Below, piece after piece: positions 1,070 through 17,100 of a stretch of DNA of 30,846 nucleotides. How positions within the stretch are numbered: the first letter of the stretch is position 1; each line of letters begins with the position of its first letter. Source of the DNA: a virus; IMG/VR virus record IMGVR_UViG_3300010370_000151, positions 1 through 30,846 of that record. The stretch is one strand, 5' to 3'. Made by a program: the position numbers and the translations under genes. The notes under the pieces are model-generated. The model searched no databases, was not told the DNA's origin, and worked only from the letters and a program-made list of their open reading frames with translations.

Positions 1070-1456
1070 TTATAATTCTAATTCTACAAAGTCAGCAGAC
1101 TGAAAAGCTGCAAAAGTTGCAATGTAATCTAACCTCACAACAACAGCGTGTCTGTCAGTTTCTGAAGGTGTCACAGTTAATTGTGTTACATTCAAATTTG
1201 GTATGAATTTTTTTATAGCTTCACTTATTTCTAATCTAATCGCATTAGCTGAAGGTTGGTCATTTGGTTCAAAGATATATTGTCTTAAATTAGCACCAAA
1301 ATCTGGTAAGTAAAGTCTTTCTCCTTTATTTGTTAAAAGTAAATGTATTAAATCTGATTTTATTGCACGTTTAGCTTCAGTGCTCATTCTCAAGAATTTA
1401 CCTTCTGGATCATCTTGAAACGGAAAATCAATATTTATATAACTTTTTTGTGCCAT
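1070..1456 (-). CDS. 25: Baseplate wedge protein, gpW/gp25 family
   Basis: The product has 128 residues, the normal size for T4 gp25, a baseplate wedge subunit that contacts the sheath. The pattern is typical: a short N-terminal strand (INIDFPF), then a helix with KRAIKSDLIHLLLTNKGERL, then YLPDFGANLRQYIFEPND (residues about 50-67) and an amphipathic helix with EISEAIKKF. GER-x4-P-x-FG is the family signature. The start codon at 1456-1454 is preceded by AAAAA, with an ATATTTAT octamer 9 bases upstream. The preceding replication operon ends at a terminator just upstream, so this gene probably begins a separate late unit with the gp6-like gene. The start codon also forms one arm of a 15-bp inverted repeat, described separately. 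Confidence 0.92.
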   Translation of the reverse strand: MAQKSYINIDFPFQDDPEGKFLRMSTEAKRAIKSDLIHLLLTNKGERLYLPDFGANLRQYIFEPNDQPSANAIRLEISEAIKKFIPNLNVTQLTVTPSETDRHAVVVRLDYIATFAAFQSADFVELEL

Positions 1457-1523
1457 TTTTTATTTATAAATATCTGATTTTAAAATTTACTATTAAATTT
1501 TAAAAACTAAATGGCACAAAAAA
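1444..1523 (-). repeat. 15-bp perfect inverted repeat burying the gp25 start codon
   Basis: AAATGGCACAAAAAA at 1509-1523 is the exact reverse complement of 1444-1458, with a 50-base A/T-rich loop. In minus-strand RNA the 5' arm would pair with the gp25 ATG and its next four codons. The 5' arm shares its U run with the terminator at 1520-1543. The ATATTTAT octamer lies in the loop, so RNA started there would lack the 5' arm. The repeat is seen directly; the regulatory role is inferred. Confidence 0.75.
1466..1473 (-). promoter_or_regulatory. ATATTTAT octamer upstream of gp25, candidate late promoter element
   Basis: Minus-strand ATATTTAT ends 9 bases before the gp25 start codon. The same octamer stands 15-18 bases before three other starts in the window (9603, 24864, 29402). 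This copy lies closer to its ATG, so a transcript from it would have almost no leader. Overlapping bases also read TATAAATA (1461-1468), the T4 late promoter core, on the minus strand. No transcription data; role inferred. Confidence 0.4.
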
Positions 1524-1543
1524 ACCCTCCGAAGAGGGTTTTT
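1520..1543 (-). terminator. Rho-independent terminator ending the replication operon
   Basis: The stem pairs 1520-1529 with 1534-1543 (AAAAACCCTC against GAGGGTTTTT) around loop CGAA, which reads TTCG on the minus strand, a stable tetraloop. On the minus strand it ends in a run of seven T. It stands between the reductase gene and gp25. The A run on the other side could make it work on plus-strand RNA too. Confidence 0.85.
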
Positions 1544-1544
1544 C

Positions 1545-1655
1545 TTATCCATAATTTTTACGTATTTCGTAGAAAGCTGATAATATTTGTTGAGTTAAAG
1601 TTATATTGGGTCCCCAATTAATTTTTATCTCACTTTTTTTGGATTGTTTGTTTTT
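1545..1655 (-). other. 36-codon open frame directly after, and in frame with, the reductase stop codon
   Basis: After the reductase TGA (1658-1656) the same frame stays open for 36 codons to TAA at 1547-1545, just before the terminator. The translation contains KINWGPNITLTQQILSAFYE and then IRKNYG, which looks more like protein than random A/T-rich DNA. It has no ATG, GTG or TTG start in frame. It could be a short gene with an unusual start (ATA or ATT), a decayed gene end, a stop-codon readthrough tail, or chance. At this base composition a random run of this length is not rare. Confidence 0.25.
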
Positions 1656-3515
1656 TCAAACAACAACACATCCATCAGCTCCACAAGCTACTTCACCTGA
1701 AAGATTGGTATTATCATCCAATTCGATTACCCTTGTTAAATCAACATTAGTCAAGGACTTCATTAATTCATGATATTTTTCTTCGGTGATATCTTCAAAA
1801 GGAGCTTGTGTATAAGTTCCACCATTATAAGGCAACACTGACAATCCGTTATAATAATCTTTGTTGTCCCACATCCATTCACCAACAGATTCCCATTCAT
1901 CTTCTTTAATAGAAATTGTAGCTGATACATTGTGTGTATTAGAACCACTTCTGTGACCACCTTTTACCCATTCCTGAGAAACTTTTTTAACCCTTTCCAA
2001 AATTTGGAAAACTGCTTCTGTTCTCAAAATAGAATCTTTAGGGGCTTTTTGTGGGATTGAGATAACAGCTGTATCGTGTGGACGGAAATATTCATCTTCT
2101 ACAAGTTCAGGATGATTAACATACAAGTAACTGTAAATAGATTCGTTTTTACCAACTCGGATACGACGGATATAGTAATCATTGTGCCATGCATGAATCC
2201 CAGATGAGGTTCCAAGAACCAAAGAAGAAGTTCCAGATGGTTTCACAGTTGTACAACGAGCTGCTTTATTAATTCTAATTAAAGACGCAACTCTTTCGTT
2301 TTCTTCTTTTGAAATTTTAGCTGCTTTCTTCATATCGTAATTCAAAACAACACCAGAACCAATACCTGTCATACCGACACCGATAAGAGCTTCTTTTTCG
2401 GTTGTTTTTTTCCAAACATCACGTAGATAGTGGAAATCAGTATAACCAGCTTGTAATGTACCAATAAAGGTTGCTGCTTTTACTCTTTCTTCAAAATCTT
2501 CTTGTGATTCAATATCACTAGCGTTAATTTCACAAAGATTACAGAATTGATTTGGACGAAGAGCAATTTCACAACATGGGTTAGTTCCCCAATCTTTATC
2601 ATTTGTTAAATAAATTCCAGGTTCACCTGAACCACTTAATTCAATACGTTTCCACAAATCTGCAAAGAATTCTTTGGTTACTTTGTGACGAAGTAGTACG
2701 GCTGAGTTGTTTGCTCTTCCTCTTTGTGGGTTGTTTTCCCACCAGTTACCTGATTTACAAGAAATCATTTCATCATCATCAGCTGAGAATAAACTAATCA
2801 AAGCTGCTCGACGAATACCACCTGCTAATACTGCATCTGCGATATAACAAACAATATCATGAACTTCAATAGGAGACAATTTTTCACTATCTTCTTTGTT
2901 ATCCAAAACTTTTTTAATGTTATGGAGACAATCTTTAAGTGGTTGAGGACCTGGGGCTTTACCACCTGAAGTTACCAATCTTGCTCCTTTTGGACGAATG
3001 TCTGAAAAATCAAATATTGGTGTTGATGACTTGAAACCAAAATAAGATTCCATAAGTACTTTGATAGCGTCAGCCCATCCTTCAATAGAATCACCAATAA
3101 GGTATCTTCTAGTTCTGTTTGGGTTTGGTTTCTTTATTTCTGGTAATTTATCAACGTGGTGTTTTTGTACTGAATAACCAACACCTGTACCACCTAACAA
3201 CAAAAACATAGTTTCTGCAAAAGCGTCAGGGTGGTCAACTGGCATATAAGCACAATTGTAAATTCTATTTGGGCTTATTTCAATTGGTTTACCGCCAAAT
3301 TGTAAACTACGCATTGATGGAAGAACTTTTTTATCGTAAACCAATTGATAAACTTTTTCAATTTCTTCTTTAAGTTGTGGGTACTTTCTTTGGTGCATCT
3401 CTTTGTTTCGGGTCACCAATTCTTCCCAAGTTTCTCTTCTGTTTAACTCTGGAACGTACTTTGCGTACTTCATGTAGACAGTAATGTCTGAGAGTATTTT
3501 GTTTGAAATCTCCAT
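1656..3515 (-). CDS. nrdJ: Adenosylcobalamin-dependent (class II) ribonucleoside-triphosphate reductase
   Basis: This enzyme reduces ribonucleotides to deoxyribonucleotides using a cobalamin-generated radical, with no small subunit and no oxygen need. The 619 residues carry the whole cysteine set of the Lactobacillus-type monomeric enzyme: C88 (IYNCAY), C314 in NPCCEI (thiyl-radical position) with N312 and E316, C325 eleven residues later (QFCNLC), and C611/C616 near the C terminus (VACGADGC), the pair that re-reduces the active site. The spacings 314-325 and 611-616 match C408/C419 and C731/C736 of Lactobacillus RTPR. PSGTSS near residue 427 and the GGTGVGYSVQ loop near 108 also fit. It is last in the replication operon, 25 bases after the helicase, so it would supply precursors for phage DNA synthesis. 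The host or its surroundings must supply cobalamin. Confidence 0.93.
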   Translation of the reverse strand: MEISNKILSDITVYMKYAKYVPELNRRETWEELVTRNKEMHQRKYPQLKEEIEKVYQLVYDKKVLPSMRSLQFGGKPIEISPNRIYNCAYMPVDHPDAFAETMFLLLGGTGVGYSVQKHHVDKLPEIKKPNPNRTRRYLIGDSIEGWADAIKVLMESYFGFKSSTPIFDFSDIRPKGARLVTSGGKAPGPQPLKDCLHNIKKVLDNKEDSEKLSPIEVHDIVCYIADAVLAGGIRRAALISLFSADDDEMISCKSGNWWENNPQRGRANNSAVLLRHKVTKEFFADLWKRIELSGSGEPGIYLTNDKDWGTNPCCEIALRPNQFCNLCEINASDIESQEDFEERVKAATFIGTLQAGYTDFHYLRDVWKKTTEKEALIGVGMTGIGSGVVLNYDMKKAAKISKEENERVASLIRINKAARCTTVKPSGTSSLVLGTSSGIHAWHNDYYIRRIRVGKNESIYSYLYVNHPELVEDEYFRPHDTAVISIPQKAPKDSILRTEAVFQILERVKKVSQEWVKGGHRSGSNTHNVSATISIKEDEWESVGEWMWDNKDYYNGLSVLPYNGGTYTQAPFEDITEEKYHELMKSLTNVDLTRVIELDDNTNLSGEVACGADGCVVV

Positions 3516-14100: not shown

Positions 14101-17100
14101 TTGATCTTTCTTTATGAGGTCTGAAAAACTATAACCTAAAAGTTCAGTCCATGGTGATAATTTACCAAGATAAGTTGAACTTGTACCTGGGATATTACTA
14201 TTATACCTACCAGTTCCACCAAAATAATAAAAAGCACCAACTAAATCTGGGGTACCTACTGAAATACCGTTTTCTATTGTAAAACCACCAGCAGTACCAC
14301 CCTGAGCTGATACACTAGGTCTTGATCCATCTTTTAAAGCATCAGAATAACTTTGGGGGCTAAATACTGATTTTGGTGTTTTAGTAAAATCTATAGCGTT
14401 GTATGTACCGTAAACCCCATCTATATAATTTTTAACGTTCCATCTATTACCTGCAGGGTTATAGGACTTTCTAGAACCTGGAGCTGAACTTAAGTCAAAT
14501 GTTGGTTGAACTAATGGGTCATAACCGTTAATTTGAACTTGTGGTTTGTTTAAGTCACAATTAAAACAAAGAATTGTTTTTCTCCATTTAGCACCTTTTG
14601 CTGACCCTGTAAATTCTCGCCAACGCCATAATTGAGATCCAAATGCTAAAACCCAAAATTTAGGTATTTCATTTATTGCTGCTATATTTTGAAAAGCAGT
14701 TGAAGCCCAAGGCATTGAACCTCTATCGGTGTCAACAACTAGTTTAGACTCAGGTCCTCCATAAGTTTTTAATTTAAAATTAAGAGGGAGGTTAGGATCG
14801 GGTTGAGAGTATTTAGAAAGTGGGAATTTATTACCAGCAGAATCGTAAGCTTGTGACATTCTACCATCACCTGATATTAATCTAACTGTAAGTGGTGTTG
14901 GTTTAAAACTGTTTAAAAAAAGATAAGCTAAGTTTTTAAATTGTGTTGGTTCGTCATAGATTAAACTACCTGTAGCTAGAGATCTAAAATTATTAACATT
15001 ATCTAACCAAAGTGGTGTTGCTATTAACGGTGCGTAAAAATGATTTTTTGCGAAAATTTTACCTTTTACATCTTCTAAATCATAAGAGGCAGTCACTGGG
15101 TTGGTTGTAATATTTCTCTTTTGTCTGAAAATAATGTCTATACCAACAACATTATTGTTATTAGTATCATATTTATCATAAAGCCAAAAAGATAAAAAAC
15201 CAGCGTTACTGAGTTCACTACCCATAGACGATGAAGTCTTTGCCCCATCAACAGGTGAATATTTACCTAAAGTTGAGTATAGTATTTCACCGTTAAAATC
15301 AGGTGAATTTTGACTGCCACCAATTTTTACTAAATTATTAATATCCAAACCCATAGCGTCTTTATATATAGGATTACCGAATCCTAAATTAAAAGCTTTC
15401 ACACTGTTTGTATATTCACCATTAACAAAATCTTTAATCGTTTGATTTGATAACACGATGTCACGTATGTTATTAGTCGTGATATCAGCTGGTTTAACTA
15501 TTTTTAGTAAATATTTACCCTTATCCATTTTAAAAGGATTGGGAAAAATTTTAATTGGTACACTTAGTCTGAAATTTATAAATCCATCCTTTGGTTTAAA
15601 AACATAATACTCTTCATCACTGTCTATTTCTGTATCATAAACTTTACCGGAAGATGTGAGTTTATTTTTTGAAGAGAGAGTATAACCATCTGTATATATT
15701 TTGGTTAAATTTATAGCCTTTGTTACATAAGGAAAAGTAGCGTCTGCTTGATTACCGAAAGAACTAACATTTTTTAATTGATCAATTACAGATTGTATAA
15801 AAACAGTGGCAGTACTATCGGTTATCCAACTATCTAACTGACTTTTATTATTGGTTGAATTTAAAAGATTAAAAGCGTCTATTTTTGCGGCTGTACTTGC
15901 GTAAGATTCAGAAAATTTTGCAATATTTATTGGTCTTCTTGAGAACATGGCATCTCTAGTTATTCTCATTGGATTCATTATTGTATGATCCAAGGCAACA
16001 AAAAGTCTATCACCTATTGTTTTTAAAACAGTATTTCTATTAGTATTTCTATTAGACCAACCATTTGGTTTATCCTTTACCCAATATTGGGATTCAAGTG
16101 GATTTATAGGAATGTAATTATCGTATGTTGGAGTGCCGGCACCAGGTGGTGGAGATGGGTTAAATAGAGCTTCAATTGCTTTTTGGTATTTAATGAAAGC
16201 GTTTAAGAAATCTTCAACAAAAATAAGTTCCGGCCAACTTTTATCTGGCTTTCCTTTTTCATAAAAATCTGGATTAATTCCTGGATATTTTTCAATTTCA
16301 CCAGTACCAATTGAACTACCTTCAATAACACTATATGTTGGCCAAGAATAAACTTTTTTGTTACTTGTCTGGGAAGCTTGTATATCAGTACTCTCTACTT
16401 TTGCACCAACATTGGTATCTGAAGTATATTTATTTAAATCTTCTGCTAAATGGTACTTTTCAGCTTTAGTGGAAACTTCTTTTAAAATCTCCATGAAAGC
16501 TTGAGTATTTGCTAATAAAATTGTGAAAACACTCCTAATTGTAGGTGAAAACTTTAATTCTTTTACAATTTTTGCTTCACTTATGTCACTAGCGGCATCA
16601 GTTGTTAAATCTATTGTTCGTCTTATTATATTTATATCATTATCTATATTTTCTAAAATATAACCAAAATCAATATAATAGTTATTTGTAGTCTTATCTG
16701 ATGAAACATAACCTAATGATGAGAAAGAATTTGTATTTCCCGCAGTACCGCCGGCAAACCAAGGTTCATTTGTTAATTCAGGTACGTCAAAAATAGGGTA
16801 TCCTGAAGAGGGGACCGTTGGGTTTATTACTGTCGCAGGATTACTTGACTGTAGTGTAAAAGTAGCTTTTGGTACACCACCTCCTGTTATTTTTGTATAT
16901 TTATCGGCTTGTTTTAAAACTTCTTTTATTGCTGATAAAAAAGTACCACCGTTTCTATTAAAAATTTCATACAATTTTCCACCAGATGCTACTTGACTGG
17001 TCATTATTGCACTACCTAATGAATCTTTACCAAAAACTATTTTTAAGGGTCTTTCACCATTGATACTACCACTTTTTAATGAAGTTTTTTCTACTGTGTA

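Follow-up and report, generated by a model that had tools for sequence, protein, structure and literature searches.

In an uncultured phage, the tail of the terminator that closes the early replication operon is perfectly complementary to the start of the following gp25-like baseplate gene, and a late promoter motif lies between the two complementary arms. On balance we think it reasonably likely that this arrangement serves as a translational timing lock, in which the arm in the terminator tail would hide the gp25 start in read-through RNA while RNA begun at the late promoter would remain free. The wiring at gp25 looks like a real timing switch because related phages show it at the terminase gene, where the two arms have undergone paired mutations.

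Organization of the gp25 locus

The window, by which we mean the whole stretch of DNA that was analyzed, comprises 30,846 nt (positions 1 to 30,846 of the uncultured virus record IMGVR_UViG_3300010370_000151). A similarity search with the gp25 region found no DNA similarity to any named phage. Upstream of the gp25-like gene, the minus strand carries a replication operon of ssb-like, UvsX-like, exonuclease, DnaB-type helicase and RNR genes, the last of these being a class II type RNR (1656..3515; phrog_367, E 5e-133). A frame without a start codon (1545..1655; KNKQSKKSEIKINWGPNITLTQQILSAFYEIRKNYG*) continues in frame after the RNR TGA. Compared by eye, it resembles the small ORF L003:493-630 as well as the C-terminus of the GIY-YIG-like protein L009:4115-4891, and it has the appearance of a vestigial small gene or homing endonuclease, such as relatives possess at this place.

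The intrinsic terminator of the replication operon (1518..1543, minus strand) consists of CCCTC-TTCG-GAGGG-T7 (1518-1538) and an A5 flank (to 1543) that is able to lengthen its stem. The upstream, or blocking, arm TTTTTTGTGCCATTT (1509..1523) is composed of the U tract of the terminator together with the 9 bases that follow it. There follow an A+T-rich hairpin of 12 bp (1478..1505), the octamer ATATTTAT preceded by a G (1466..1473), and the downstream arm AAATGGCACAAAAAA (1444..1458), which takes in the start codon of gp25 (1456-1454) as well as its first codons. The gp25-like baseplate wedge gene itself (1070..1456; phrog_261, E 4.5e-24; phrog_43, E 4.6e-13) is the first of a tail operon whose next gene (2-1057) runs off the contig. 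A T4-type TATAAATA is present at 1468-1461 (minus strand) and overlaps the octamer.

The original prediction of a perfect 15-bp inverted repeat was borne out, since plus-strand positions 1444-1458 and 1509-1523 are exact reverse complements, as was the predicted location of the octamer in the loop: the order on the minus strand is terminator, upstream arm (1523-1509), octamer (1473-1466) and downstream arm (1458-1444) with its ATG. Judged by its motif, a promoter at this place between the arms would yield RNA devoid of the 5' arm. Such complementarity is not expected by chance. When the 98 nt upstream were put through 20,000 dinucleotide shuffles, the longest match to the start region was 14 bp, reached 3 times. 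Of 695 gene starts examined in the window and in related genomes, that of gp25 had the best repeat, the runner-up having 12 bp.

Predicted folding of the gp25 start region

RNA spanning 1430-1545 (minus strand) folded in silico at -31.7 kcal/mol (z -6.4), as the original prediction would have it, and none of 200 shuffles did as well. The best fold forms ~10-12 bp of the arm helix, because the A tract in the stem of the terminator can compete for the U tract of the upstream arm. We likewise calculated the cost of opening the start region. Consistent with the claim that the start is hidden only in read-through RNA, the predicted cost was 12.0 kcal/mol in read-through RNA vs 1.7 kcal/mol in promoter-begun RNA; with ~80 nt upstream included, the read-through value corresponds to z 7.9 against shuffled upstream sequence. 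Respective costs were 14.4 and 1.2 kcal/mol in relative L003 (z 4.9), and 9.0 and 1.3 kcal/mol in relative L006 (z 2.9). When only the upstream sequence was shuffled, this level of occlusion was reached in 0/40 trials for the window, 0/40 for L003 and 1/40 for L006. Among the four octamer sites that precede genes in the window, the start was occluded at gp25 only (opening cost 13.4 vs 3.7±1.7 shuffled, z 5.6), and the same opening-cost calculation found no start occlusion at the other three (z -0.7 to 0.5).

The predicted fold of read-through RNA thus places a helix over the gp25 start, as in T4-type sequestration, albeit one whose size varies with flank length. With longer flanks the predicted opening cost drops from 12 to 2-8 kcal/mol, because the U tract can pair with the terminator A tract and because of rival folds. 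Since the cost depends on the flanks, equilibrium folding predicts repression of uncertain strength.

Conservation among gp25 relatives

We compared 52 loci related at gp25. The upstream arm is complementary at 15/15 positions in L003, L004 and L005, and at 14/15 in L006, where a family-wide A replaces the pairing G of the window and produces one A.C mismatch. Two exact-pattern scans added no members to these four. More distant relatives retain terminator and octamer, as well as a TTTTTTATGC tail and a conserved stretch, but are devoid of the complementary CCATTT. In fold calculations, gp25 starts outside the closest clade of the window were not unusually occluded (z about 0), L015 excepted. 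Most relatives therefore retain gp25, terminator and promoter but not the complementary arm, the very observation that the original prediction had named as counting against it, and a rule for gp25 at large does not hold. We confine the claim to the lineage of the window rather than regard it as refuted, because T4 gene e itself lacks its structure in Aeh1, 44RR and other phages (PMC3014915).

Identity among the window, L003 and L006 is ~90% over the 70 nt before gp25, compared to 38-47% at four-fold sites, indicating that the region is under selection. Since all 70 nt are conserved alike, conservation of the arm taken by itself is unspecific. We saw no compensatory changes between the gp25 arms GTGCCATTT/AAATGGCAC among the few relatives that carry them. 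Hence, as judged from sequence comparison, the case for a lock from gp25 alone is suggestive.

Three further elements in this region were considered and set aside. Pairing of the internal A+T-rich hairpin (1478..1505) is lost in L003, and it was rejected as a conserved element. By eye, the ATGC... frames of a possible short leader peptide after the terminator differ or stop immediately between relatives, arguing against a conserved leader ORF. Finally, L038 shows a G007-type match between the gp25 start and the terminator loop that has disappeared in L040. We also observed a conserved segment of ~45 nt (ATTTACATTTNATATTTT...TAAATT...) lying between terminator and octamer in L007-L046, distant relatives in which this segment has no pairing with the start.

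The octamer as a late promoter motif

In a 318-kb relative, GATATTTATA occurs in 35 copies vs 8 for its reversed control, with strong strand and position bias, and of the 154 copies of the ATATTTAT octamer, 73 sit no more than 60 nt ahead of a gene start. Its positions in the cultured Flavobacterium phage immuto (NC_055915) identify the octamer as a late promoter, for it is found there ahead of the terminase, sheath, tube, hub, tail spike and virion protein genes. By these sequence measures, this group of phages, whose hosts probably belong to the Bacteroidota, has a genuine promoter motif in ATATTTAT.

Distances from octamer to ATG peak at 4-5 and 12-17 nt (269 sites). Read with T4 late-promoter geometry, the short spacing of 4-5 nt implies that many late RNAs of these large T4-related phages are probably leaderless. 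Both spacing classes were seen in L055-L070 (G001), L075-L084 (G003) and NC_055915 (L191-L193).

A search for a late, gp55-like sigma factor in these phages yielded weak similarities only and no firm identification. The candidate, L189:1291-2064, is a conserved protein of 257 aa with a weak match to phrog_234 (E 8e-4), a Pfam Sigma70_r2 match below the cut-off (E 0.006) and a weak profile match to T4 gp55; against phrogs it gave no hit at E 0.05. Together with L194-L197 it represents a conserved protein of 257-260 aa with weak similarity to sigma-70 region 2.

Paired changes at the terminase gene and other late genes

Screening of other octamer sites identified the terminase large-subunit gene, at which G001 reads AAATAATGTTCT-cg-ATATTTAT-atattaaa-AGAACATTATTT-c-ATG, with the octamer in the loop of a hairpin that abuts the AUG. 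In relatives the two arms change together (AACAATGTTCTT/AAGAACATTG, AATGATGTTCCT/AGGAACATCATT and AATAACGTTCT/AGAACGTTATT). In an alignment of 9 sequences, 93.5% of cells were paired vs 41-58% in slid controls, 6 cells in three pairs had changes in both arms, and 2/500 shuffles reached the covariation score. A second late-promoter-led gene, in L064, possesses a 14-bp repeat with an A-U to G-C double change (AAG/CTT to GAG/CTC, L178 vs L179). Compensating changes of the kind sought in related phages were seen at the terminase and L064 genes and not among the few relatives at gp25. The literature available to us contained no equivalent for terminase or in Flavobacterium phages. The G001 terminase large subunit (L061:7749-10904) also contains an intein with a LAGLIDADG domain (Pfam).

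In other relatives with leaderless terminases, the bases around the start codon, GGCATGA, can pair with the terminator tail TTTTTTCATGCC; the pairing energy goes down to ~-13 kcal/mol, compared to -2.15 on average for other leaderless genes. Permuting the leaderless terminases among themselves gave no significant result, since their tails are near-identical. The terminator tail is again the blocking arm at these genes, indicating that the fusion of arm and terminator tail, unfamiliar when it was first noted at gp25, is present there and recurs elsewhere, albeit not in all relatives.

We measured the generality of the layout with a permutation test in which upstream and downstream segments were swapped among promoters. 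Proximal arms paired better than expected over 130 non-gp25 sites with terminase included (p 0.006), and modestly above expectation over 191 sites without gp25 and terminase (z -2.3 to -2.6). Neither distal control segments nor genes without the octamer displayed excess pairing. Given the modest excess over the 191 sites and the three unoccluded promoters of the window, we rejected a general rule for all late promoters; the start-hiding layout is a property of selected genes, not of every late promoter.

Three homing-endonuclease genes carry the promoter in a hairpin loop, namely L056:6088 (LAGLIDADG), L017:4263 (HNH-type) and L005:237 (HNH/NUMOD3). At L056:6060-6094 the hairpin around the late promoter is followed by T5, so that the same hairpin may both terminate upstream RNA and hide the start. 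In L005:1-2243 the RNR gene appears fractured into intein-like N- and C-terminal pieces with the separate HNH/NUMOD3 gene between them, and the ATATTTAT that precedes this gene lies within a TACCTCCC/GGGAGGTA repeat. Also in L056, a jumbo phage record, TTTTAACATA/TATGTTAAAA flank the promoter and start codon of a ribosomal protein S21-like gene (15425-15619; PF01165).

Proposed mechanism and alternative explanations

We propose the following sequence of events at gp25, for which we infer the transcription start, the read-through and the effect on translation. Polymerase escaping the terminator of the early replication operon would make a read-through RNA in which the terminator tail UUUUUUGUGCCAUUU would pair with the gp25 start AAAUGGCACAAAAAA, so that early RNA would not give rise to the baseplate protein. 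At late times of infection, a polymerase directed by the phage would initiate at ATATTTAT inside the loop, and the resulting RNA, starting a few bases before the AUG and without the upstream arm, would be translated. Terminator and lock would then constitute a double barrier. The predicted system thus silences read-through RNA at the level of translation in the manner of T4, but in a version that places the lock in the terminator tail.

The most serious competitor is that the repeat is a by-product, in which a frequent (C)ATGC or GTGC terminator tail and an A-rich start pair partly for free and drift completed the repeat in the lineage of the window without any function. Such a tail does follow the U tract of 18/51 terminators located within 60 nt upstream of an octamer vs 5/81 others, and less than 1% of all T runs; the instance in the window lies at 1518-1512. 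The retention of TTTTTTATGC by gp25 relatives without pairing to the start points the same way, as does the family-wide A of L006 opposite the pairing G of the window. Drift alone does not readily account for the CCATTT/AAATGG extension, which lies outside the general tail and is kept in L003, L004, L005 and L006 despite the low identity at four-fold sites, nor for the covariation of the same layout at terminase. We therefore regard a by-product as unlikely, albeit deserving of serious consideration.

Control at the level of DNA, with flanking repeats that act as an operator or cruciform around the late promoter to govern initiation without any RNA lock, would suit the compact cases, as repeats at terminase and the L064 gene are symmetric about the promoter. 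The gp25 arms, in contrast, are far from symmetric about the octamer. In addition, arm sequences are wholly different between genes (GTGCCATTT, AATGTTCTT, AAGTTTTCTTT, CATGCC) and covary instead of keeping one motif, arguing against a shared operator and rendering this explanation very improbable. Less probable still, to the point that we give it scarcely any weight, is a structure that aids translation by bringing a distant ribosome-binding site near the start, as with the split site of T-even gene 25. T4 gene 25 does possess an enhancing hairpin between its Shine-Dalgarno sequence and AUG (PMC3014915), but the AUG at gp25 is itself inside the helix, inspection found no Shine-Dalgarno-like sequence upstream of the blocking arm, and the helix is absent in more distant relatives. 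The T-even arrangement, a Shine-Dalgarno sequence upstream of a small hairpin that shortens the spacing, was accordingly not found here.

The translational timing lock remains our preferred reading for gp25. Its extension to a large T4-related uncultured phage group, in which the terminator tail would double as a start-covering antisense arm with the late promoter in the loop, leaderless terminase included, and the (C)ATGC/GTGC tail would be a trace of this use, is a tentative proposal that we consider possible, if rather doubtful.

Comparison with known systems

In T4, early read-through RNA sequesters the start or ribosome-binding site of e (lysozyme), soc, 49 and I-TevI, which becomes accessible when the RNA begins at a late promoter within the structure (PMC3014915, PMC2988022). 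The gp25 locus resembles these genes in that a late gene follows an early unit, the late promoter lies between or within the arms, read-through RNA is predicted to hide the start while late RNA would be devoid of the 5' arm, and the structure is restricted to a lineage. It differs in its promoter, the octamer ATATTTAT rather than the T4 consensus TATAAATA, in the hiding of the AUG itself (predicted) with no Shine-Dalgarno sequence present, and in a blocking arm that is the tail of an intrinsic terminator, an arrangement known from sequence and predicted folds.

According to a review that cites Gruidl et al. 1991 (PMC2988022), T4 genes 25 and 26 belong, like soc, e and 39, to the genes repressed through sequestration. 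The two systems share a homologous gene 25 baseplate protein and a late gene whose transcription overlaps a recombination or replication unit. In T4, however, gene 25 follows gene 26 and precedes uvsY, whereas gp25 here follows RNR and a terminator, and the best-studied hairpin of T4 gene 25 is a translation enhancer.

The homing endonucleases Aeh1 mobE and T4 segB also combine a late promoter with a start-hiding hairpin (PMC2988022). The L056, L017 and L005 endonuclease genes, with their promoters in hairpin loops, are comparable to these and to I-TevI, and the L005 gene, like mobE, lies within a fractured RNR gene. Unlike mobE and segB, they represent other endonuclease families with another promoter, and the L056 hairpin also resembles a terminator.

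Taken together, these comparisons suggest that a mechanism known largely from work on T4 extends to a distant group of uncultured phages whose starts are devoid of Shine-Dalgarno sequences, with covariation at terminase. Since the cultured phage immuto shares the promoter motif, the late-promoter part is testable now. A single element is predicted here to combine termination with translational silencing, and such an element could explain the silence of structural, packaging and homing-endonuclease genes in early RNA.
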